Positions 1 through 9,077 of a DNA stretch of 37,496 nt are shown here, piece after piece. The stretch lies in the IMG/VR virus record IMGVR_UViG_3300027763_000120, positions 1 to 37,496 of that record. One strand, given 5' to 3'. The notes beneath the pieces are model-generated. The model was not told the DNA's origin. It searched no databases and saw only the letters and a list, made by a program, of their open reading frames with translations. The translations under genes and the position numbers were made by a program. The stretch is from a virus. Positions within the stretch are counted from its first letter, which is position 1, and the number at the start of each line of letters is the position of its first letter.

Positions 1-495
1 CAGGCATTCACGATGGGGACTTTGTTTGACCGGGATGACTATCCTGATGCGAGTGAAATAGCCAGCAAATTTAAATTGGGGTATACTTTTTCTCCCGTGC
101 CGGATGTTGGTGACTGGCGCGTGACTACAGATGCAGAAACCAAAAGAGAGTTAGACGAAGAATATAAAAAGGTCTACGAAGATAGACTCAACAATGTTAC
201 TAAGGACTTGTGGGGCAGACTACATACTTGCCTGACTCACATGACCGAGCGGATGACAGACACCGCTGCTGGAGAGAAGAAGATATTCAGGGACAGCCTA
301 CTGGACAACGCAGTTGAGTTGTGTGGGTTGTTGACCAAGCTGAATATAACGAATGACCCCAAGTTAGAAGAAGCAAGAAAGCTACTGGAATCTACCGTGT
401 GCAATGTGGATGTGAAAGACCTTCGCACTAGCACGGGCGCACGTTTGGAGATTAAGGCGCAGGTGGATGAAATCCTTAACAAGTTCAACTGGTAG
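1..495 (+). CDS. conserved phage protein, 3' part of a gene cut by the window edge
   Basis: The reading frame is open from base 1 through an ATG at 13 to a TAG at 493-495, so the gene probably begins left of the window. The visible ~164 residues resemble the C-terminal half of a phage protein of unknown function that I recognise by the pattern G-x-LFD-x-x-DYP, then ASKF, then a PVP-x-x-GDWRV segment near residues 30-40. The rest looks helical and charged, with likely coiled coil. No ribosome binding site is visible before ATG 13, which supports truncation. It is followed after 8 bases by the VRR-NUC gene with an AGGAGG site between, so it belongs to the same rightward operon. Function unknown. 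Confidence 0.7.
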   Translation, partial: QAFTMGTLFDRDDYPDASEIASKFKLGYTFSPVPDVGDWRVTTDAETKRELDEEYKKVYEDRLNNVTKDLWGRLHTCLTHMTERMTDTAAGEKKIFRDSLLDNAVELCGLLTKLNITNDPKLEEARKLLESTVCNVDVKDLRTSTGARLEIKAQVDEILNKFNW

Positions 496-503
496 GAGGA
501 CGT

Positions 504-791
504 ATGACGCCCGAAGGGAAAGTCAAAGCGCGGGTTAAGAAGATACTGGATGAGCGTGGGGTGTATTACTTCATGCCAGCAACGGGTGGATACGGGAGGT
601 CAGGTATCCCTGACTTCATCTGTTGCTACAACGGGGTGTTCATGGCTATCGAGTGCAAAGCAGGGAAGGGTGATCTCACCGCCCTACAGACGAGAGAGTT
701 AACGCGGATACATGCAGCAGGGGGTGAAGCTGTCGTCGTCAGAGAAACTTCGATGGATAACTTTATTAACTTCTTAGGGAGTTTTAAATGA
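504..791 (+). CDS. VRR-NUC domain nuclease
   Basis: A 95-residue stand-alone VRR-NUC protein, a PD-(D/E)XK-fold nuclease common in phage replication modules. Visible core: Asp37 in the GIPDF motif, Glu50 and Lys52 in AIECKAGKGD, and Gln62 in ALQ. These are the usual catalytic positions of the family, and the length matches stand-alone phage VRR-NUC proteins. AGGAGG lies 6 bases before the ATG. The stop overlaps the start of the next small gene (ATGA at 788-791). By analogy with related phages it probably processes branched or flap DNA during replication or recombination; the exact substrate is unknown. Confidence 0.9.
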   Translation: MTPEGKVKARVKKILDERGVYYFMPATGGYGRSGIPDFICCYNGVFMAIECKAGKGDLTALQTRELTRIHAAGGEAVVVRETSMDNFINFLGSFK

Positions 792-943
792 TTAAGACAA
801 ACGACGAAAAGGTGCGGGAGGCTATCGCCTACCTGCGTAGCCGGGACAAGTATCTGCTAGACGGATGCAAGTGGGTGCCGACCACGGCAGAGAAGACGGA
901 TGTGAAGAAAACGATTGCGGAGTACAGGGAGGCAACGAAATGA
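788..943 (+). CDS. small hypothetical protein (51 aa)
   Basis: Starts in an ATGA overlap with the VRR-NUC gene and ends in an ATGA overlap with the NinX-like gene at 940. This tight coupling on both sides is the main argument that it is real. The product is charged and helical, beginning MIKTNDEKVREAIAYL and ending EYREATK, without a recognised domain. It fits the run of tiny accessory genes here. Function unknown. Confidence 0.65.
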   Translation: MIKTNDEKVREAIAYLRSRDKYLLDGCKWVPTTAEKTDVKKTIAEYREATK

Positions 944-1242
944 AAACCGAAGAACTGCAAGGAGCCGCCCTTGATTGGGCGGTGGAATGTCTTGAAAACA
1001 ATCGTTCGCCAGAAAGCACTGCTAGCGAAGAGGACTATTCGCCCTCAACCAAGTGGTCTCAAGGTGGTGTGATCATTGAGCACTGTGGAATCAGCATCAA
1101 ATGGATTAGCGCTTCTGAATGGCAAGCGTCTGACCTTGACTACACCGTCTGCTTTGGCCCCACACCGCTCATTGCAGCCATGCGCTGCTACGTTGCAAGC
1201 AAGTTGGGTGATGAGGTTGAGATACCGGAGGGATTGAAATGA
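940..1242 (+). CDS. ninX: NinX-like protein (DUF2591)
   Basis: A 100-residue protein of the DUF2591/NinX family, found in lambdoid and other proteobacterial phages. Landmarks: MKTEELQGAALDWAVE at the N terminus, YSPSTKWSQGGVII in the middle, and GPTPLIAAMRCYVASKLG-x-EVEIP at the C terminus. The frame is open further upstream, but the ATG at 940 follows AGGGAGG and overlaps the previous stop as ATGA, so it is chosen over an upstream candidate at 865. The family lies in the nin-type accessory region of phages. Its biochemical role is not established. Confidence 0.9.
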   Translation: MKTEELQGAALDWAVECLENNRSPESTASEEDYSPSTKWSQGGVIIEHCGISIKWISASEWQASDLDYTVCFGPTPLIAAMRCYVASKLGDEVEIPEGLK

Positions 1243-1355
1243 AAGCCATTGTGCTAGCGATTGCATTCTGCTCAACGCTTTCGTTTGTTGTTGGTGTGGT
1301 CAACGGAACGATAGCGGCAAATAAAATAGTGCCAACGAAGGAGTGCGGGAAATGA
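1239..1355 (+). CDS. tiny membrane or secreted peptide (38 aa)
   Basis: Begins in an ATGA overlap with ninX and ends in an ATGA overlap with the gene at 1352. After a lysine at residue 2, residues 3-27 are hydrophobic (IVLAIAFCSTLSFVVGVV), which fits one membrane-spanning helix or an uncleaved signal anchor. The C terminus KECGK is encoded by the first copy of a repeated gene-junction sequence (see the repeat entries). No homologous family recognised. Confidence 0.6.
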   Translation: MKAIVLAIAFCSTLSFVVGVVNGTIAANKIVPTKECGK

Positions 1356-1360
1356 GCGAT
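1337..1360 (+). repeat. gene-junction repeat, family 1, copy 1
   Basis: Contains GAAGGAGTGCGGGAAATGAG, which encodes the KECGK C terminus of the 38-aa peptide, the AAGGAG ribosome binding site and the ATGA overlap of the next gene. Confidence 0.85.
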
Positions 1361-1714
1361 ACGCCACGAACGGATGCAGAATTTAGTGATGACTACTACA
1401 CCAGCGGGTTTGTCCGAACAGAATTCGCGCAGCAACTTGAACGCGAACTCGCCGCCGCAATAGCGCAGCGCGACAAGGCTAGGGAGGAAGCGGAACACTA
1501 CAAATTGTATGCGCGATCATTGTATTTAGCCGCCCAACCGTTTTGCAATATTAAGGCTGATGACGGCGACACATTCAACGGATACGCGCCAGAAACAATC
1601 ATTCGTTTTGAGGCCACTGTAAACGAACTTCGGCGGTTGAGAATATGTGCCAGCGCTGGGCTACCTGCCGATGGTGTAGCAATCGACTCTGCAATGAAGG
1701 AGTGCGGGAAATGA
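1352..1714 (+). CDS. small coiled-coil phage protein (120 aa)
   Basis: The ATG at 1352 follows the AAGGAG of the junction repeat and overlaps the previous stop; a GTG nine bases upstream in frame is less likely. The product opens MSDTPRTDAEF, an opening I know from many short proteins of proteobacterial phages. It continues into a coiled coil (about residues 25-50, QQLERELAAAIAQRDKAREE) and ends in IDSAMKECGK. The RDKAREE segment and the C-terminal tail are shared at DNA level with the next gene. Function unknown. Confidence 0.8.
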   Translation: MSDTPRTDAEFSDDYYTSGFVRTEFAQQLERELAAAIAQRDKAREEAEHYKLYARSLYLAAQPFCNIKADDGDTFNGYAPETIIRFEATVNELRRLRICASAGLPADGVAIDSAMKECGK

Positions 1715-1829
1715 GCGACGAAGAACAGGAGTGGCTGGCAAGTTTATTAGATCGCGTGTCTGATCTGGAAAAAGAAGTCACGGAACTAAAAACAACGCTT
1801 GCCTATGAGCGCGACAAGGCTAGGGAGGA
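1468..1829 (+). repeat. 21-bp exact direct repeat in two neighbouring coiled-coil genes
   Basis: Copies at 1468-1488 and 1809-1829 are identical and encode the RDKARE segment in the same frame. Together with the shared ends they show that the 120-aa and 155-aa genes have exchanged or duplicated parts. Confidence 0.8.
1691..1718 (+). repeat. gene-junction repeat, family 1, copy 2
   Basis: GCAATGAAGG followed by AGTGCGGGAAATGAGCGA. Encodes AMKECGK of the 120-aa protein and the site and start of the 155-aa protein. Shares the MSD start codons (ATGAGCGA) with copy 1. Confidence 0.85.
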
Positions 1830-2178
1830 CGCATTGGATGCGGAGAAGGGGTTGATGGACTGCAAGGGCTATGACCTATTTCCTGACGGAACGCTGCGCC
1901 CGGCCCATGGCCTAGGCGAGTGGGTGAAAGCAGAGGACTACGACAAACTTCACGCCACCGCCGAAGCCGCACAAGCGGAGATTGCGGCACTGCGAAACTT
2001 TGTCGATAAAAACATGACGTTCTATGACGTAGACGCCGATTCTCTTTTAAACACGCCGAACATTCCAGTGCTTGCACAGGTGAGCAATCGTATTTGGTAT
2101 CACGCCACAGACGATACGAAATCATGCCCATTTAGCGCGGTAATTGACGCGGCAATGAAGGAGTGCGGGAATGGGTAA
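1711..2178 (+). CDS. coiled-coil phage protein, partial paralogue of its upstream neighbour (155 aa)
   Basis: Starts at ATG 1711 in an ATGA overlap, with AAGGAG supplied by the second copy of the junction repeat. Residues ~5-50 form a likely coiled coil (LLDRVSDLEKEVTELKTTL), followed by RDKARED, which matches RDKAREE in the gene upstream. A central stretch containing LFPDGTLRPAHGLGEW looks like a small folded segment. The C terminus reads VIDAAMKECGNG. In this third junction copy one A is missing, so translation runs one codon further than in the sister genes and the next gene starts 8 bases inside. Function unknown. Confidence 0.75.
   Translation: MSDEEQEWLASLLDRVSDLEKEVTELKTTLAYERDKAREDALDAEKGLMDCKGYDLFPDGTLRPAHGLGEWVKAEDYDKLHATAEAAQAEIAALRNFVDKNMTFYDVDADSLLNTPNIPVLAQVSNRIWYHATDDTKSCPFSAVIDAAMKECGNG
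2152..2173 (+). repeat. gene-junction repeat, family 1, copy 3 (one base shorter)
   Basis: GCAATGAAGGAGTGCGGGAA then TG. It lacks one A relative to copy 2, which changes the overlap from 4 to 8 bases and adds a Gly to the upstream protein's end, but keeps the ribosome binding site and ATG. Confidence 0.8.
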
Positions 2179-2293
2179 TCACGAATGGTGGGTGCGATGG
2201 TGTAAGAAATGTAAACGCTCGTTTGAAGACTACATTGAATTCCCAGACTATTGCCCTGAGTGCGCTAAGAAAATAAAGGAGTGCGGGAAATGA
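2171..2293 (+). CDS. zinc-ribbon-like mini protein (40 aa)
   Basis: A 40-residue frame starting at ATG 2171 inside the end of the previous gene and ending in an ATGA overlap with the gene at 2290. It has two CxxC pairs: C11-K-K-C14 and C28-P-E-C31. The spacing fits a minimal zinc ribbon. Trp and basic residues lie near the N terminus (EWWVRWC). The C terminus KECGK comes from the fourth copy of the junction repeat. Zinc binding is inferred from the cysteines; the function is unknown. Confidence 0.65.
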   Translation: MGNHEWWVRWCKKCKRSFEDYIEFPDYCPECAKKIKECGK

Positions 2294-2294
2294 G
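2276..2294 (+). repeat. gene-junction repeat, family 1, copy 4
   Basis: AAGGAGTGCGGGAAATGAG. Encodes KECGK of the zinc-ribbon mini protein and the site and start of the 78-aa coiled-coil gene. Confidence 0.8.
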
Positions 2295-2526
2295 TAGTGA
2301 CAAAGCGTATCGGGCGCTGAAGGAACGGTATTGCGCTCTTGAGGGAGAGATGCTGGTGCTGAAAGACCAGCTAACGTGTGCGCTGCTTCAAGCGCGGGAG
2401 AACGCGGAGACTGCAAATGAGTGTAAATTAAGAATGGAAGATTTAGAAGCCAAACTCAAGGATAAGAACATACACAAGCTAGTCAGAGCAGTTGAACGCG
2501 CACATGGGATAGGAGAGAAAGAATGA
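2290..2526 (+). CDS. small coiled-coil protein (78 aa)
   Basis: ATG 2290 is preceded by AAGGAG of the fourth junction repeat and overlaps the previous stop. Almost the whole product is predicted helix or coiled coil (residues ~5-65, for example LKERYCALEGEMLVLKDQL). It ends VRAVERAHGIGEKE, the first copy of a second C-terminal tail repeat shared with the next gene. It resembles the two coiled-coil genes upstream in style but not in detailed sequence. Function unknown. Confidence 0.7.
   Translation: MSSDKAYRALKERYCALEGEMLVLKDQLTCALLQARENAETANECKLRMEDLEAKLKDKNIHKLVRAVERAHGIGEKE
2480..2526 (+). repeat. gene-junction repeat, family 2, copy 1
   Basis: A 47-base unit that encodes VRAVERAHGIGEKE at the end of the 78-aa protein, with GGAG and the ATGA start of the next gene. 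Matches copy 2 at 41 of 47 positions by my count. Confidence 0.85.
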
Positions 2527-2747
2527 TACTCGCATGGTATGACCCCACTAATCATCATGTCAGCACTGACAAGCACGACCCCTTGTTTACACCGTCAGGA
2601 CAGCTATGGCCTCTACACAGGATACCGCTACCGCTGACAAAAGAAGCGGTGGGGTTGTTGATAGGAAACAGTCTTGAGGCGCAGTCGTGGCTTATGTCGG
2701 TAGTCAGAGCAGTTGAGAAGGCGCATGGGATAGGGGAGAAAGAATGA
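2523..2747 (+). CDS. small hypothetical protein sharing its neighbour's C-terminal tail (74 aa)
   Basis: Starts in an ATGA overlap, with a GGAG site 8 bases upstream that lies inside the tail repeat of the preceding gene. The body (MILAWYDPTNHHVSTDKHD and a Pro-rich middle) is unrelated to that gene, yet the last 14 residues, VRAVEKAHGIGEKE, are nearly identical to the neighbour's end. The following gene again starts in the ATGA overlap. The body is not recognised. Confidence 0.65.
   Translation: MILAWYDPTNHHVSTDKHDPLFTPSGQLWPLHRIPLPLTKEAVGLLIGNSLEAQSWLMSVVRAVEKAHGIGEKE
2701..2747 (+). repeat. gene-junction repeat, family 2, copy 2
   Basis: A 47-base unit that encodes VRAVEKAHGIGEKE at the end of the 74-aa protein and the site and start of the 68-aa gene. 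The bodies of the two genes carrying this tail are unrelated. Confidence 0.85.
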
Positions 2748-2950
2748 GACTTCAAATGAAAGCGTGGGACTTGGTTGGTCTTGAGAACGGCATACAAGAA
2801 CACTTGGGGACGTTCAGTAGTCATAGAAAAGCTATGGCATACGGAGAGTATTTAATAACAACGGGGCAGGAAATATGCTGGGCTAACGCAACCAGCGATG
2901 GCTTGTCAGTGAGCGGCCCGTATAAATTACGTATCAACCCAGAATATTAA
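2744..2950 (+). CDS. small hypothetical protein (68 aa)
   Basis: Starts in an ATGA overlap downstream of GGGGAG from the second tail repeat. The product (MRLQMKAWDLVGLENGIQEH at the start, SVSGPYKLRINPEY at the end) is mixed alpha/beta in appearance, with no recognised domain. It lacks the repeated tail and is followed by its own AAAGGAG site for the next gene, so it closes the repeat-linked set. Function unknown. Confidence 0.65.
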   Translation: MRLQMKAWDLVGLENGIQEHLGTFSSHRKAMAYGEYLITTGQEICWANATSDGLSVSGPYKLRINPEY

Positions 2951-2962
2951 AGGAGTTACAAA

Positions 2963-3136
2963 GTGAAGAAGCAAGTAAGCACCCCAAAGACTGATGAACT
3001 TCTATACCGTCTTATGGGGCAGATAGACAAGCACCGCAAGACCAGCCAGAGCGTCTACGAAGCACTGTGGGAAATGGCGAAACATGCCCGTGAACTAGAA
3101 ACTAAACTGAGGGGGATATGTGTTAACAACAAATAA
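2963..3136 (+). CDS. small helical protein with GTG start (57 aa)
   Basis: AAAGGAG at 2949-2955 stands 7 bases before a GTG at 2963, giving a 57-residue frame ending TAA at 3134-3136. The product is basic and helical (LLYRLMGQIDKHRKTSQSVY, then ELETKLRG), with no known family. Its last 17 bases overlap the next gene in a different frame, so either stop or start could be a little off, but the strong ribosome binding site supports it. Confidence 0.55.
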   Translation: MKKQVSTPKTDELLYRLMGQIDKHRKTSQSVYEALWEMAKHARELETKLRGICVNNK

Positions 3137-3305
3137 AGACCTTAGAAATGTATTGAAGAGCGCCGCGCAACAAGGGTGGGAGTTTGAATGTAAGAACAAC
3201 CACATCAAGGGCAAGCACCCTAGCGGTAAGACCACGACGATAAGCCGAAGCCCAAGCGACGGACGAGCGATTAAAAACATAATGAGAGACTTGAGGATTG
3301 CATGA
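3120..3305 (+). CDS. HicA/YcfA-like small protein
   Basis: A 61-residue protein with a GTG start after GGGGGAT and an ATGA overlap with the polymerase gene. The pattern (helix; GWEFECKNNHIKGKHPSGK; TTTISRSPSDGRAIKNI; helix) recalls the small dsRBD-like fold of HicA toxins, with His at the position of the HicA GSHH motif (here NNHIKGKHP). There is no HicB-like antitoxin beside it. Similar orphan proteins occur in phages, so a nucleic-acid-binding role is more likely than a toxin-antitoxin system. Start and family are moderately certain. Confidence 0.6.
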   Translation: MLTTNKDLRNVLKSAAQQGWEFECKNNHIKGKHPSGKTTTISRSPSDGRAIKNIMRDLRIA

Positions 3306-5137
3306 AGCTGATTACGCTGGACTTTGAAACCTACTACGACCAAGAGTATTCCCTAACCAAAATCACCACCGAAGAGTATGTCCGAAGCAGTTTGTTTGAG
3401 GTGATCGGGGTATCCGTGCAGGTAGCGGATGGTAAGCCGGTTTGGTTTGAGGGCACTCACGCGCAGATTAAAAACTGGCTTCAGCAATTCCCGTGGGCTG
3501 ATGGGATGTTGGTGGCGCATAACGCACTGTTCGACGCGACTATCTTGAGTTGGATATTCGACATACACCCCAAGGCTATCGCAGACACCCTTAGTATGGC
3601 TCGTGCCAAGCATGGGGTAGAGGTAGGTGGCAGCTTGGCGAAGCTGGTTGAGTTCTATGAGATTGGCGCTAAAGGCACGGAGGTTATCAACGCGAAGGGC
3701 AAGCGGCGGGTGGACTTTGAGAAGGAAGAACTAGCGCGGTATGGGGAGTATTGCTGTAACGACACCGCGCTAACCTACAAGTTGTTCGACATACTCATAG
3801 AGACTTTCCCCAAGACGGAGATGCGTCTGATTGACCAGACCATTAAGATGTTCACGGAGCCGGTGCTGGAGTTGGATGCCTTCCTGTTGGAGCAACATCT
3901 AAGTGACATCAAGGCGCGGAAGGAGGAGTTGCTGGCAAAGGTGGCGGGTGACCCGGAGGAAGCTAAGAAGAACATCATGAGCAACCCCAAGTTTGCCCAA
4001 CTGCTGACGGAGTTTGGGGTTGAGCCGCCGATGAAGGTTAGCCCGACTACCAACAAGCTCACCTTCGCTTTCGCCAAGACGGACGAGGGTTTGAAGGCGT
4101 TGCTGGATCATCCAAGCATTGATGTGCAGACGTTGGTAGCTGCACGGTTGGGGGTCAAGAGCACGTTGGAGGAGACGCGCACGACACGGTTCTTGGACAT
4201 TGCCCAGCGGGGTAAGCTGCCTATCCCGTTGAAGTATTACGCTGCCCATACGTCACGCTGGGGTGGCACCGACAAGATTAACCTTCAGAACCTACCGAGC
4301 CGTGGGGCTGATGCAGGTAAGCTCAAGCAAGCCATCCGTCCCCCCGAGGGGTATGTGATTATTGACTCTGACTCGTCCCAGATTGAAGCGCGGATGCTGG
4401 CGTGGATGGCAGGGCAGGACGATCTGGTTGAGGCGTTCCGTAAGGGTGAGGACGTATACAAAATCATGGCATCCGCTATCTACCGCAAACCCGCAGAGGA
4501 TATCAACGCAGGGGAACGCTTTGTGGGCAAGACCGTGGTGCTGGGCGCGGGGTATGGGCTAGGTGCCAAGAAGTTCCAGATGTTCATGAAGGCGGCAAAG
4601 GTTGAGATGTCTCAGGACGAGGCAGCACATATCATCGACACCTACCGCAATACCTACCCTGCTATCCCTAACCTATGGGCGCAGGGCGATGGATGTCTTC
4701 GGGCTTTAGTGGACAACCAATCTGCATCCTACGGCAAGGAAGGGGTCGTTAGCATCAACGGGTTCTTGGGTGTTCTGACACCTAATGGGATACCCCTGAG
4801 ATACCATGAGATTCGTAGAGCCAGAAATGCCAAGGGGCAGGATGAGATTATCTACACCTCCCGCACAGGTATCACCGGCATATGGGGTGGTAAGTTTACA
4901 GAAAACCTGATACAACACTTAGCACGTTGCATCATCGGTGAGCAGTTACTACGGGTGGCTAAACGGTACAGGGTGGTCTTGACGGTGCATGATGCTATCG
5001 CTTGTGTTGCCCGCGAAGAAGAAGCACAGGAAGCACGGAGATACGTTGAAGAGTGTATGCGCTGGACTCCTGTATGGGCTGAAGGGCTACCGCTTAACTG
5101 TGAATCCGGGGTCGGTAAAAACTACGGGGAGTGCTAA
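3302..5137 (+). CDS. family A DNA polymerase with 3'-5' exonuclease
   Basis: Replicative phage DNA polymerase of the Pol I family, 611 residues, with no 5' nuclease domain. The DnaQ-like exonuclease has D7-x-E9 (LDFETYYD), N74-x3-D78 (AHNALFD) and Y150-x3-D154 (YCCND). Polymerase motif A is D357-SSQIE362-AR. Motif B is R406-x3-K410-x7-Y418-G. Motif C is H563-D564 (LTVHDAIA). All catalytic residues are present. The O-helix residue equivalent to E. coli Pol I Phe762 is Leu414. The gene starts in an ATGA overlap and ends in a TAATG overlap with the Cas4-like nuclease, which suggests coupled translation of the replication proteins. Confidence 0.97.
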   Translation: MKLITLDFETYYDQEYSLTKITTEEYVRSSLFEVIGVSVQVADGKPVWFEGTHAQIKNWLQQFPWADGMLVAHNALFDATILSWIFDIHPKAIADTLSMARAKHGVEVGGSLAKLVEFYEIGAKGTEVINAKGKRRVDFEKEELARYGEYCCNDTALTYKLFDILIETFPKTEMRLIDQTIKMFTEPVLELDAFLLEQHLSDIKARKEELLAKVAGDPEEAKKNIMSNPKFAQLLTEFGVEPPMKVSPTTNKLTFAFAKTDEGLKALLDHPSIDVQTLVAARLGVKSTLEETRTTRFLDIAQRGKLPIPLKYYAAHTSRWGGTDKINLQNLPSRGADAGKLKQAIRPPEGYVIIDSDSSQIEARMLAWMAGQDDLVEAFRKGEDVYKIMASAIYRKPAEDINAGERFVGKTVVLGAGYGLGAKKFQMFMKAAKVEMSQDEAAHIIDTYRNTYPAIPNLWAQGDGCLRALVDNQSASYGKEGVVSINGFLGVLTPNGIPLRYHEIRRARNAKGQDEIIYTSRTGITGIWGGKFTENLIQHLARCIIGEQLLRVAKRYRVVLTVHDAIACVAREEEAQEARRYVEECMRWTPVWAEGLPLNCESGVGKNYGEC

Positions 5138-5796
5138 TGAACAAGTGGTCATACAGCAGCATGTCGTTGTTCCAACAATGTCCGAAGAAGTATTACCACC
5201 TGAGGATAGCTAAAGACGTATTCGACCCACCATCACAACAGATGCGGTATGGGTTGGATGTGCATCAGGCTGCGGAGCATTACGTAAGGGATGGCACCCC
5301 CATACCGGAGAAGTATTCCTATCTAACCCCTATGCTGGATAGCCTTAAGAAGATAAAGGGGGATATCTACTGTGAGTATCGGATGGGGTTGACCCGTGAT
5401 TTGGAGCCATGTAAGTTTGGAGCCAAGGACGCATGGTGGCGGGGTATCGCAGACTTCCTAGTAGTGAATGACGATAGGGCTAAAATCGTTGACTATAAAA
5501 CCGGACAGAACAAGTATGCCGACACCAAGCAATTAGAACTCCTAGCCCTTGCTACGTTTAGGCATTTCCCAGAGGTTTTAGAAGTCAATGCAGGGCTGCT
5601 GTTTGTTGTCCATGCGGCGTTTATCAAGGAGCATTATTACTACAAGCAGCAGGGAGATTTATGGGAGAAGTGGATGAAGCAGACCGCAGAGTTGGATAGT
5701 GCGTATGAGAACAACGTCTGGAACCCCAAGCAGAACTTCACCTGCCGTGCGTGGTGCCCGATAACTAACTGTGTACACAACGGAAGAGAGGAATGA
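5137..5796 (+). CDS. Cas4/RecB-like PD-(D/E)XK nuclease with four conserved cysteines
   Basis: A 219-residue nuclease of the PDDEXK_1 type. Motifs: H43 (YGLDVHQAAEHY), D106 (WWRGIADFL), D119-Y-K121 (KIVDYKTG) and Q132 (KQLELLAL). Cys15 (LFQQCPKKYY) and Cys203, Cys207, Cys212 (FTCRAWCPITNC) match the arrangement that holds a 4Fe-4S cluster in Cas4 and AddB. The ATG at 5137 overlaps the polymerase stop (TAATG). Nucleases of this class (DUF2800 in phages of Gram-positive hosts) sit beside PolA and an SSB in phage replication modules and probably act in end processing or recombination. No CRISPR genes are nearby, so a Cas role is not implied. Confidence 0.88.
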   Translation: MNKWSYSSMSLFQQCPKKYYHLRIAKDVFDPPSQQMRYGLDVHQAAEHYVRDGTPIPEKYSYLTPMLDSLKKIKGDIYCEYRMGLTRDLEPCKFGAKDAWWRGIADFLVVNDDRAKIVDYKTGQNKYADTKQLELLALATFRHFPEVLEVNAGLLFVVHAAFIKEHYYYKQQGDLWEKWMKQTAELDSAYENNVWNPKQNFTCRAWCPITNCVHNGREE

Positions 5797-5797
5797 T

Positions 5798-6076
5798 ATG
5801 CCATATACGAAAAGCCCCAGACCCTATAAACATGAATACGATATGCAACAAGCACGGGGAGAGTTACCCGACCGGATGGAGCGGCAACGCGCACGACGGG
5901 AGATGGACAAGAAGGGTGTTAAGAGGGCGGGTAAGGTCATTGACCACATAACCCCGCTGTCGAAGGGTGGCACCAATGCCCCATCGAATCTGAAGCTCAC
6001 CACCCGTGCCAAGAACGCGTCGTTCAGCCGCAACTCAGATCATACGGTCAAGAGAAATAAACCTAAGAAGCCTTGA
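5798..6076 (+). CDS. HNH endonuclease
   Basis: A 92-residue HNH protein. The N-terminal ~45 residues are very basic and likely helical (RMERQRARREMDKKGVKR). The HNH core follows as VIDHITPLSKGGTNAPSNL, with Asp49-His50 and Asn64. ATG 5798 lies after AGAGAGGA; an in-frame GTG at 5771 has no good site. HNH proteins of this size act as free-standing homing endonucleases or assist packaging. Here, inside a replication operon and directly before the only sizeable gap of the block, homing or recombination is the more likely role, but this is not provable from sequence. Confidence 0.85.
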   Translation: MPYTKSPRPYKHEYDMQQARGELPDRMERQRARREMDKKGVKRAGKVIDHITPLSKGGTNAPSNLKLTTRAKNASFSRNSDHTVKRNKPKKP

Positions 6077-6217
6077 CACCTAAGTTCTATCGGTAGAATA
6101 TAGTAGCCCAAGTCGCCCAAAGAGGCGGCGGCAGTTCCAGTAAAGAGTATTACTAATAACGAAGTGAGTGCAAACATGCACATCGCTTCAAACGTCTTTT
6201 ACGAGTGAAGAAAGCAA
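6073..6217 (+). promoter_or_regulatory. intergenic gap with candidate sigma70-type promoter
   Basis: This is the only gap longer than 60 bases in the rightward block. A perfect TTGACA at 6073-6078 (overlapping the HNH stop) is followed after 15 bases by TAGAAT at 6094-6099, a five-of-six match to the -10 consensus but with a short spacer. CGCC-CAAAGA-GGCG near 6114-6127 could form a small hairpin. The gap carries no convincing gene. A secondary promoter driving the helicase-SSB-primase genes is plausible. Confidence 0.4.
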
Positions 6218-7783
6218 ATGCAGATTATTGACAACAAAGCACTACATCTTCGGGTGCGTGACCCTAAGGTAATCACTGACGTAATCCCGTGCAGTAAGCA
6301 GGTGGGGCGGCATGATGTGCTGGTGAAGTGGGGGTTGGAGGAATCCCAAGTCCTCAAGAACCTTAAGATTAAGAACGTGCCCTCCCCTATCCTGCGGTCA
6401 TACAAGTGGACAGGGATACACAAGCCTTTCGCCCACCAGATAACAACCTCAGAGTTTCTTACGCTACACCGCAGGGCGTTCTGCTTTAACGCGCAGGGGA
6501 CAGGGAAGACCGCGAGTGTTATATGGGCTGCGGACTACCTGCTCAAGCAGAAGCGGATACGCCGTGTGCTGGTGATTTGCCCTGTGTCTATCATGGGGTC
6601 AGCATGGCGGGGGGACTTGTTCCGGTTCGCTATGCACCGGACGTTTCAGATAGCCCATAGCTCACGGTCTGAGAAGCGTAAGGAAGTCATAGCGGGGGAC
6701 GCTGAGTTTGTAATCATCAACTATGACGGGTTGGACATAGTATCCGACGAGATAATTAGTAGCGGGGACTTTGACCTTATCGTAGTGGATGAAGCAAACG
6801 CCTATAAGAACGTGCAGACACGACGCTGGAAAACGCTGGCTAAGATTATTACCCCAAGCACATGGGTATGGATGCTAACCGGCACTCCCGCATCGCAGGA
6901 ACCTAGTGACGCTTACGGGTTGGCTAAGATTGTTAACCCGTCTGGTGTGCCTAAGTTCCAAGGGGCGTTCCGTGACAAAGTAATGACGCAGCTTACACGT
7001 TTCAAGTGGGTGCCGAAGCCCGATGCAACCGAAACAGTTTTCAACGCGCTGCAACCGGCGATTAGGTTTTCAAAAGAAGAGTGCCTTGACTTGCCAGAGA
7101 TGATGTATGCAACCCGCATCGTGCCGCTAACCAAGCAGCAGTCGAAGTATTACGAGACGTTGAAGCAGCAGCAGTTGATAGTAGCGGCGGGGGAAGAGAT
7201 TAGCGCACCTACTGCGGCGGTTAACCTGAGTAAGTTGTTACAGATATCAGGTGGCGCAGTGTATTCCGATGACAAGTCGGTTGTGGAGTTTGATTGCAGC
7301 AACAGGCTGCAAGCATTGAAGGAAGTCATAGACGAGGCAAGCCACAAGGTGCTGGTGTTTGTGCCTTACACGCATAGTCTATTGATGGTGGCAGAGTGGT
7401 TACGCAAGCAGAAATACACAGTAGAAATTATCAACGGGGCGGTTACCCCGAACAAACGCACGGAGATATTCAACACGTTTCAGACTACACCTAACCCACG
7501 GGTATTAGTGATACAGCCACAGGCAGCATCGCATGGGGTAACCCTTCATGCAGCTAACGTAGTTGTTTACTGGTCACCCGTGATGAGTGTAGAGACATAC
7601 CTGCAAGCCAACGCACGGGTGCATAGGGCGGGGCAGGTTAACAAGGTAACGATTGTGCATCTACAGGGCAGCGGCGTAGAAAGCAAGATGTATAAAATGC
7701 TTCAGGGTAAGGTAGATACCCACCAGCGGCTGGTTGATCTTTATAAGGAAGAGTTGGGAGACACAGGAGAAGCAAATGAGTGA
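6218..7783 (+). CDS. SNF2-type (superfamily 2) DNA helicase
   Basis: A 521-residue phage SF2 helicase of the SNF2 branch. Walker A is NAQGTGKTAS (K97), motif II is DEAN at 191-194 where DEAH or DEAD is more usual, and motif III is LTGTPASQ at ~220-227. The second RecA lobe has motif V-like IQPQAASHGVTLHAA and motif VI ANARVHRAGQ. A conserved HQ near residue 73 lies before the Walker motif. Proteins of this architecture and length are standard in phage replication modules with PolA and VRR-NUC. It probably remodels or unwinds DNA at the fork or during recombination. The next gene starts 8 bases inside its 3' end. Confidence 0.93.
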   Translation: MQIIDNKALHLRVRDPKVITDVIPCSKQVGRHDVLVKWGLEESQVLKNLKIKNVPSPILRSYKWTGIHKPFAHQITTSEFLTLHRRAFCFNAQGTGKTASVIWAADYLLKQKRIRRVLVICPVSIMGSAWRGDLFRFAMHRTFQIAHSSRSEKRKEVIAGDAEFVIINYDGLDIVSDEIISSGDFDLIVVDEANAYKNVQTRRWKTLAKIITPSTWVWMLTGTPASQEPSDAYGLAKIVNPSGVPKFQGAFRDKVMTQLTRFKWVPKPDATETVFNALQPAIRFSKEECLDLPEMMYATRIVPLTKQQSKYYETLKQQQLIVAAGEEISAPTAAVNLSKLLQISGGAVYSDDKSVVEFDCSNRLQALKEVIDEASHKVLVFVPYTHSLLMVAEWLRKQKYTVEIINGAVTPNKRTEIFNTFQTTPNPRVLVIQPQAASHGVTLHAANVVVYWSPVMSVETYLQANARVHRAGQVNKVTIVHLQGSGVESKMYKMLQGKVDTHQRLVDLYKEELGDTGEANE

Positions 7784-8180
7784 CGATAAGCAAACACCCG
7801 TCAGGCTGGCTAAAGTCTTTAGGAAGATGGAGGCAGCACGGACTAAGTTGCAAAAAGAGTTTGACGACGCTGATGCAGTTATAGCAGGGCAGATGGATGT
7901 GGTTAAGAACCAACTCCTTGAACTCTGTAATGAGCTTGGGGTTAGTAGTTTGAAAACGGAGTATGGCACGATTACCCGCTCAACCAAGACGCGCTACTGG
8001 ACGGGGGATTGGAGTTCCATGCACAGCTTTCTTAAGGAGCATGATTCACTTGATTTACTTGAGCGGAGGATTCACCAGACAAACATGAAGACCTTTTTGA
8101 ATGACTACCCGGACTTGCACCCGCCCGGACTCAACGCGGATAGCCACTATAGTATTTCGATTACTAAAAACAAATCTTGA
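7776..8180 (+). CDS. conserved phage protein, replication-linked (134 aa)
   Basis: The chosen ATG 7776 (MSDDKQTP) follows GGAGAAGC and overlaps the helicase stop; the frame is open 42 bases further upstream but without a better site. Residues ~10-50 form a coiled coil (FRKMEAARTKLQKEFDDAD). A C-terminal domain of a pattern I know from many phage hypothetical proteins follows: a TYGTI-like strand, a W-x-x-M/F-x-x-FL helix, LLERRI, then DLHPPGLN and a final strand. Such proteins are usually found next to helicase and SSB genes. The coiled-coil start recalls Gam-like host-nuclease inhibitors, but I cannot assign that function. Confidence 0.75.
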   Translation: MSDDKQTPVRLAKVFRKMEAARTKLQKEFDDADAVIAGQMDVVKNQLLELCNELGVSSLKTEYGTITRSTKTRYWTGDWSSMHSFLKEHDSLDLLERRIHQTNMKTFLNDYPDLHPPGLNADSHYSISITKNKS

Positions 8181-8192
8181 TAGGAGAAGTAA

Positions 8193-9077
8193 ATGACTAC
8201 TGATGTAACCTTGTTTAAATCCGGCGTTCCTGCTTACCTCAAAGCACAGCCGCTTGACGATATCACCAAGTCCCTGCTCGGCGGGGGCGGCACGGGGGGC
8301 AAGCGCATCTCCATCCGTGGGGGTGTATTCCGTCTGGTGGTAGACGGTAAGGAGATTGCTACCAACGAAGAGCGGTCAATGAAGGTGGTGGTGGTCAACG
8401 TCGCCCCCAAAGTATCCCGCACCTACTACGCTGGGAAGTTTGACCCTAATGCAAAGGGTGCTGCGCCTAGCTGCTGGTCTGCGGATGGGGATCGTCCCGA
8501 CAAAAGCATTGCCTCCCCGCAGAGCAGCAGTTGCGCTACCTGTGAGCAGAACATCAAAGGCTCTGGGACTAACGATACTCGCGCCTGTAAGTTCTCACGG
8601 CGTATCGCAGTGGTGCTGGAGAACGATCTGGGTGGGGATATATTCCAGTTGTCGTTGCCAGCGCAATCCATCTTCGGTAAGGGTGAGGATGGCAAGCTCC
8701 CGCTTAACGCCTACGCTGCGTTCTTGGCAGGGTTCAATGTCAACATCACGGCGGTGGTAACGGAGATGCGTTTTGATACGAACAGCGCAACCCCGAAGCT
8801 GACGTTCAAAGCTACCCGTCCTCTGACTGAGGAAGAGTATGACGCTTGCCGTGAGCGCGGTGAAACCCCCGAAGCTAAGTCTGCGGTGTCCATGACGTTT
8901 ACGGCATCTACGGAAGTGGCTGCTATTGCTGCACCAAGACTCGCCACTATTGCGAAGGAGGTAGCGGAAGAGGAAACACCAGAGCCGAAGAAGCGCGAGT
9001 CCAAGAAGAGCAAGGACGAGCCGGTTCCCAAGAAGAACTTGGCAGAAGTGCTAGACGCGTGGGATGACGAGGAGTAA
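8193..9077 (+). CDS. probable ssDNA-binding protein with cysteine cluster and acidic tail
   Basis: A 294-residue protein with no classical OB-fold signature that I can name. Features that suggest an SSB: a beta-rich core, a four-cysteine set (C94, C114-x2-C117, C132) that could bind zinc as in T4 gp32, a low-complexity Lys/Glu linker (residues ~250-285) and a very acidic C terminus, DAWDDEE, like the interaction tails of SSBs and T7 gp2.5. Its place between the helicase and the HTH/primase genes matches DUF2815 SSBs in comparable modules. AGGAG lies 6-7 bases before the ATG. SSB function is inference from architecture and context. Confidence 0.7.
   Translation: MTTDVTLFKSGVPAYLKAQPLDDITKSLLGGGGTGGKRISIRGGVFRLVVDGKEIATNEERSMKVVVVNVAPKVSRTYYAGKFDPNAKGAAPSCWSADGDRPDKSIASPQSSSCATCEQNIKGSGTNDTRACKFSRRIAVVLENDLGGDIFQLSLPAQSIFGKGEDGKLPLNAYAAFLAGFNVNITAVVTEMRFDTNSATPKLTFKATRPLTEEEYDACRERGETPEAKSAVSMTFTASTEVAAIAAPRLATIAKEVAEEETPEPKKRESKKSKDEPVPKKNLAEVLDAWDDEE

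Follow-up and report, generated by a model that had tools for sequence, protein, structure and literature searches.

Nearly identical short sequences at successive gene junctions of a freshwater phage are probable recombination linkers for the exchange of small genes

The window analyzed here is the whole of a virus record of 37,496 bases from a freshwater phage. Its early part contains an island of small accessory genes, in which four consecutive gene borders, spanning positions 1338-2293, carry nearly the same short sequence (named C1 in what follows). The features of this island and of its left side are:

504..791, + strand: Hjc/VRR-NUC-like nuclease to the left of the island (Pfam Hjc, 24.6 bits against a cut-off of 21.1), which might be a Holliday-junction enzyme
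788..943, + strand: gene F0, 51 aa, a conserved gene that anchors the cassette island on its left side
940-1242: 100-aa gene, between F0 and the membrane peptide
1239..1355, + strand: 38-aa membrane peptide (family F1), the first gene ending in C1
1338..1355, + strand: connector C1, copy 1, AAGGAGTGCGGGAAATGA
1352..1714, + strand: 120-aa protein of coiled-coil type, head MSDTPRTDA, tail IDSAMKECGK
1697..1714, + strand: connector C1, copy 2, at which the homology to L059 begins
1711..2178, + strand: 155-aa protein of coiled-coil type (family F5), tail IDAAMKECGNG
2158..2174, + strand: connector C1, copy 3, one A shorter, AAGGAGTGCGGGAATGG
2171..2293, + strand: 40-aa zinc-ribbon-like mini protein (CxxC...CxxC), a cassette between two connectors
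2276..2293, + strand: connector C1, copy 4, at which the match to L065 begins
2290..2526, + strand: 78-aa protein of coiled-coil type, head common to L065, tail swapped to the GIGEKE connector
2500..2526, + strand: connector C6, copy 1, GCACATGGGATAGGAGAGAAAGAATGA (AHGIGEKE*)
2523..2747, + strand: 74-aa protein ending in connector C6
2721..2747, + strand: connector C6, copy 2
2744..2950, + strand: 68-aa protein, 3' of connector C6 copy 2

The window contains GGAGTGCGGGAA exactly four times (at 1340, 1699, 2160 and 2278); every copy is on the + strand, with a start codon immediately following. Copies 1, 2 and 4 read AAGGAGTGCGGGAA-ATGA and encode the tail KECGK*, with an overlap of 4 bases between the adjoining genes. 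One A is missing from copy 3 (GGGAATGG), and because of this its tail becomes KECGNG* and the overlap 8 bases; none of the junctions has a spacer. The conserved unit has 18 bases (KECGK*, Shine-Dalgarno sequence and ATG). The genes so joined are unrelated, comprising a membrane peptide, coiled-coil-type proteins and the CxxC...CxxC mini protein, for which no Pfam or PHROG match was found. An earlier reading of the letters alone (the sequence-only reading) had described four successive borders sharing nearly one sequence, each copy serving at once as gene end (KECGK or a variant), ribosome binding site and next start between unrelated genes, and this description holds. The same reading had named a general ribosome binding site of the phage as what would speak against it. 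We have discarded this origin, as well as chance: the 37.5-kb window (about 21 genes called in the first 12.3 kb) has no copy beyond the island, and about 0.005 exact copies of the 12-mer core are expected by chance versus the four observed. With up to two mismatches there were 8 matches versus 2.6 expected, a number that none of 100 shuffles reached, and the 14-base form has no one-mismatch copy elsewhere in the whole record. A DNA search with positions 1-9000 of the window gave no match. Most IMG/VR occurrences of C1 fall in a group of related contigs, and many of these have 2-5 copies. A cellular origin was also considered and rejected; scanning bacterial and archaeal genomes for the exact 16-base form gave, among the matches listed, single copies only, scattered over many phyla in a chance-like manner.

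The neighbors of C1 have been compared by calling the genes around the connectors in 36 IMG/VR loci and clustering their proteins; one near-identical locus was left out, and the counts refer to 35 non-redundant loci with 59 C1 junctions. Where the left genes were homologous, the right genes were so too in 4 of 163 pairs across C1 versus 256 of 648 pairs across the other close borders of the same loci, a comparison that is confounded and partly reflects location, because the connectors sit in a hypervariable island, with most loci selected for containing C1. The contrast is weaker at the family level (Mann-Whitney p 0.09 for left-kept and 0.016 for right-kept families). The 17 copies of the membrane-peptide family F1 have 15 different right neighbors, and F0 is the left neighbor in 11 of the 17. 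Throughout, C1 was found only at starts of non-structural genes, which belong to different families. Some combinations recur, such as the junction F31-C1-F4, present in separate samples (L062, L092 and L099). Gene order is not fixed among the relatives, as it would be if they always carried the same genes in the same order. Different genes lie between the same joints in related viruses, so the joint behaves like a standard connector for gene swaps. This was the test that the sequence-only reading had proposed for its modular connector, and the differing cargo between conserved junctions speaks in its favor.

Homology between loci breaks within the 18-base core, and does so in both directions. 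Pairs in which both genes are unrelated keep an identity of 0.85-1.0 between -14 and +3 relative to the start, as compared with about 0.27 beyond these limits. There are 36 pairs with more than 80% identity to the left of C1 and different right genes (L087 and L020, for instance, are 99% identical over 78 bases on the left and 27% on the right), and 20 pairs with high identity to the right despite different left-family assignments, a few of which (L102/L020, L084/L020) resemble each other to the left as well. The window itself, at 1710, compares with L059 at 27% to the left of C1 and 98% to the right. Conserved sequence at the borders of exchanged modules and breakpoints inside that sequence, both of which are looked for in boundary sequences, are present here. 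Along these lines, the window is a mosaic whose segments match different contigs at 87-96% and end on connectors:

1227-1356: like L147 (92%) and L097 (88%)
1695-1994: like L059 (89%)
2158-2295: like L097 (93.5%), bounded by connectors at both ends
2276-2470: like L065 (94%)
2515-3116: like L400 (95.7%; contig 3300023184_000171, L400/L422)

The last of these contigs preserves F0 and the 2515-3305 block at 82-96%. Between them lie different genes, among which are two for SSDKAY proteins, one for a methyltransferase-like protein, one for a different MNDTPRTD protein and one for another subtype of the membrane peptide. The DNA polymerases of this contig and of the window share only 35-43% identity, which suggests that the island moves between different phages.

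Other connectors are found alongside C1. The next two genes of the window, which are unrelated, end in C6 (GCRCATGGGATAGGRGAGAAAGAATGA, tail GIGEKE*). A scan of IMG/VR with C6 gave two exact matches, a number too small for statistics; the same tail is seen with other genes in L235, L065/L400, L137, L062 and L157. The L065 homologue of the 78-aa protein ends in LEAKLKEKNT. A de novo search of the same islands recovered a second connector, AAGGAGAAGAAC(ACATGA or GGTGG), plus weaker ones. Far more widespread than C1 is the KEKNT connector (AAGGAGAAGAACACATGA, often extended to IEAKLKEKNT), whose exact 18-mer occurs in at least 120 IMG/VR stretches. Among the matches listed it forms 161 distinct junctions in 134 loci, with 95 downstream clusters; counts of upstream families were left out, since the proteins share the tail IEAKLKEKNT and their clustering was spoilt (112 upstream proteins in one cluster). 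At this connector, L498 and L464 are 100% identical on the left and 27% on the right. It is also present in named phages of different types (OR003940, OR003939, MW202879), including the complete circular genomes DSL-LC04, DSL-LC05 and ctjtQ328. DSL-LC05 (family B polymerase) and DSL-LC04 (polymerase I) come from Dishui Lake, with the host given as Gammaproteobacteria, and there is a KEKNT carrier from Manatee Spring as well. Another sequence stands at four or five gene starts in two of the 47 polymerase relatives that are 8 kb or longer: L157, a close polymerase relative, with GGAGGCGCGATGA (tail EAR*, KEAR type) at four gene starts within 1526-2594, and L211 with the KEKNT connector CAAGGAGAAGAACACATGA (tail KEKNT*) at several gene starts within 3690-5144. 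Different linkers coexist in one island, and other phages use other connectors (KEKNT, KEAR, GIGEKE) in the same way.

We have also examined loci that were found without using the connector. When a close form of the membrane peptide was sought by an 18-mer upstream of C1, all 10 true copies carried C1, which in one case shows a single synonymous change. The protein F0 was found in 28 IMG/VR loci, 24 of which have C1 within 4 kb downstream; of the remaining four, two are short on sequence and two have a C1 whose Shine-Dalgarno sequence is lost through an internal deletion of 6 bases. A natural decayed C1, with six bases including the Shine-Dalgarno sequence lost (GTTGGGTGCGGGAAATGA), is seen in L397 and L398 about 100 bases after 4153. 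The protein F4, found in 27 loci, is preceded by C1 in 8, by a KEKNT-type connector in 7 and by other starts in 12. Its first residues vary with the connector (MSEY, MSDEY, MRDEY, VDKY, MKY) and the rest is conserved.

The reading that we favor, with a probability of roughly 0.8, is that C1 is a short recombination linker at gene junctions, that genes are exchanged by pairing of linkers and that the sequence is kept as a ribosome binding site rather than for its peptide. From each copy the left gene takes its last codons and stop (KECGK*), and the right gene its Shine-Dalgarno sequence (AAGGAG) and the start overlap ATGA. Since the linker brings stop, Shine-Dalgarno sequence and start, it would be functional whatever flanks it, and pairing of linkers could therefore swap whole genes without damage. 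Because the copies are nearly identical and usually in the same register, any two of them could exchange a complete gene; recombination between two copies, within a phage or between phages, would result in a whole small gene being swapped, inserted or removed, and the coupling of translation along the operon would survive. As far as sequence comparison reaches, identical linkers at unrelated gene pairs, combinatorial neighbors and breakpoints inside the linker are well established. The exchange would then proceed by short-homology pairing of linkers, probably strand annealing, by enzymes of the phage or of the host, and C1 would persist through being copied in the exchanges and through working as a ribosome binding site.

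The likely agent would be general recombination with relaxed demands. Rad52-like phage recombinases recombine diverged sequences (PMC3945230), and Sak4 is reported to have an annealing activity that its SSB stimulates (PMC5928155). Of 16 relatives, 5 have a Sak4-type annealing protein and a sixth gave a marginal match; in several the protein is encoded just left of the island together with an SSB. The window has an Hjc-like nuclease, which may play a role in cassette exchange, and a PD-(D/E)XK nuclease; members of the RecT, ERF and AAA_24 families were not found in it. About 30 bp is the minimum for efficient Rec/RecA or Red recombination, with rarer RecET events at 5-13 bp (PMC2327257), which makes the 18 bp of C1, below that minimum, marginal; only extended common tails of 30-36 bp, such as GACGCGGCAATGAAGGAGTGCGGGAAATGA, reach it.

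The linker might instead be mainly a translation-control element, bound by the ribosome or by a regulator, with genes swapped by illegitimate recombination and the signal kept by selection. The strong Shine-Dalgarno sequence running directly into the start codon would fit this explanation, as would the conservation of bases outside it (TGCGGG). So would the SAS of cluster K mycobacteriophages, a 13-bp asymmetric repeat with a Shine-Dalgarno core (GGGATAGGAGCCC, 3-7 bp from the start), which has 11-19 copies, lies before non-structural genes of different phamilies and has been proposed as a translation element (PMC3203893). SAS and C1 are alike in position, in repetition and in their restriction to non-structural genes of different families, but C1 has another sequence and spacing, its unit includes the coded tail and the start, and the swap breakpoints map to it. 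These breakpoints inside the linker weigh against a mainly translational role, as does the use of different linkers in the same layout by different phages. Moreover, the same gene F4 sits behind C1, KEKNT-type or unrelated starts, so no specific element appears to be required. We regard this explanation as unlikely.

Much less probable is a dedicated site-specific system that would recognize the linker and move cassettes, as integrases do with those of integrons, even though units such as 2158-2295 lie cassette-like between identical short sites. Integron-type cassettes have a tyrosine integrase, whereas PF00589 is absent from this record, which may be incomplete. Besides, the islands have no recombinase gene in common, the site is asymmetric, and the coexistence of linkers within one island would be hard to reconcile with such a system.

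The sequence-only reading had offered an alternative of its own, a tail peptide with a function (for example as a degradation or targeting tag) that is selected as protein. The left gene is in the KECGK frame in most copies, but the changes within C1 at gene starts, the most divergent of which may not be true connectors, are neutral for the peptide (6 synonymous and 34 nonsynonymous, versus 8:46 expected under neutrality). Five copies are in another frame or fuse both genes in frame (L058 9711, L064 10076, L085 7106 and 7667, L130 2195); at the first four of these positions the frame of C1 makes the left reading frame continue into the next gene. Copy 3 of the window ends in KECGNG, unrelated tails have the same layout in other phages, and KECGK is almost never written with other codons (the same ones in 47 of 50 tails in these loci, a partly ascertained set). 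What is kept in C1 is, by all appearances, the DNA and not the peptide, and the alternative is even more improbable than a site-specific system. An assembly artefact or chance sharing of a ribosome binding site can practically be dismissed, for although all close loci are metagenomic and no named phage was found to have C1, repeats of 18 bases fall below the usual length of assembly k-mers, the same junctions come from separate samples (F31-C1-F4) and the sister linker is present in complete circular genomes.

Several known systems come close to C1. The boundary sequences of lambdoid phages are, like C1, short conserved sequences at gene borders; they are position-specific, belonging to one map position, whereas C1 occupies up to five consecutive borders (L064) and precedes many families. 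In the lambda O-Q/nin stretch no 10-mer was common to two gene starts. With one linker recurring up to five times per phage, all cassettes would be interchangeable. The PeSL of T4-type phages, reportedly described by Arbiol in 2010 and Comeau in 2014 (titles cited in PMC4503421), are said to be repeated short non-gene elements between early genes, proposed as mediators of modular shuffling; they consist of an intergenic promoter and a stem-loop terminator, in contrast to the spacerless overlap of coding end, Shine-Dalgarno sequence and start in C1. For P22 and the lambdoid phages, linkers between modules have been proposed (Susskind and Botstein, 1978; Clark et al., 2001, for HK620), as sites of homologous recombination in the account of PMC3029335, according to which most mosaic borders have no identifiable boundary sequence. 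In the cluster I mycobacteriophages Brujita and Island3, genes 67-68 have an 18-residue C-terminal tail in common at the DNA level, which PMC3029335 attributes to recombination at short ends that the genes share; that repeat concerns a single gene pair, whereas C1 forms a population-wide set. The idea of boundary linkers is old, and a multi-copy, interchangeable set of linkers that crosses lineages is a new and unusually clear variant of it. What is new is the combination of coded tail, Shine-Dalgarno sequence and start in one multi-copy unit common to several phage lineages.

Whether phage mosaic borders arise by homologous exchange at boundary sequences or by blind illegitimate recombination followed by selection has long been disputed. 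The linkers described here are plain, repeated, measurable and present in many contigs, and exchange guided by them can therefore be put to a direct test. They can also be used to trace the exchangeable pool of small accessory genes; such genes frequently act on the host in phages. Unrelated freshwater phage lineages might even share a few standard connectors (KECGK, KEKNT, GIGEKE, KEAR) as an assembly standard, by which pooled small accessory genes would splice into any matching island and be translated at once, and the connectors may persist partly for enabling exchange; this broader proposal is tentative, and we would lean slightly against it.

Some minor observations concern the genes themselves. 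The head MSDTPRTDA (window 1352-1380) is common to different proteins (also in L132, L138, L145, L153 and L149), and inner pieces such as ERELAAA...QRDKARE are repeated across different proteins (window 1467-1491 and 1808-1832), so shuffling seems to reach inside genes too. Directly before the DNA polymerase, 3120-3305 encodes a 61-aa HicA-like protein (PHROG 353 'toxin', E 1e-4), and a small HNH-like protein (VIDHITPLSKGGTN...) is encoded at 5771-6076, between the PD-(D/E)XK nuclease and a SNF2-type helicase.
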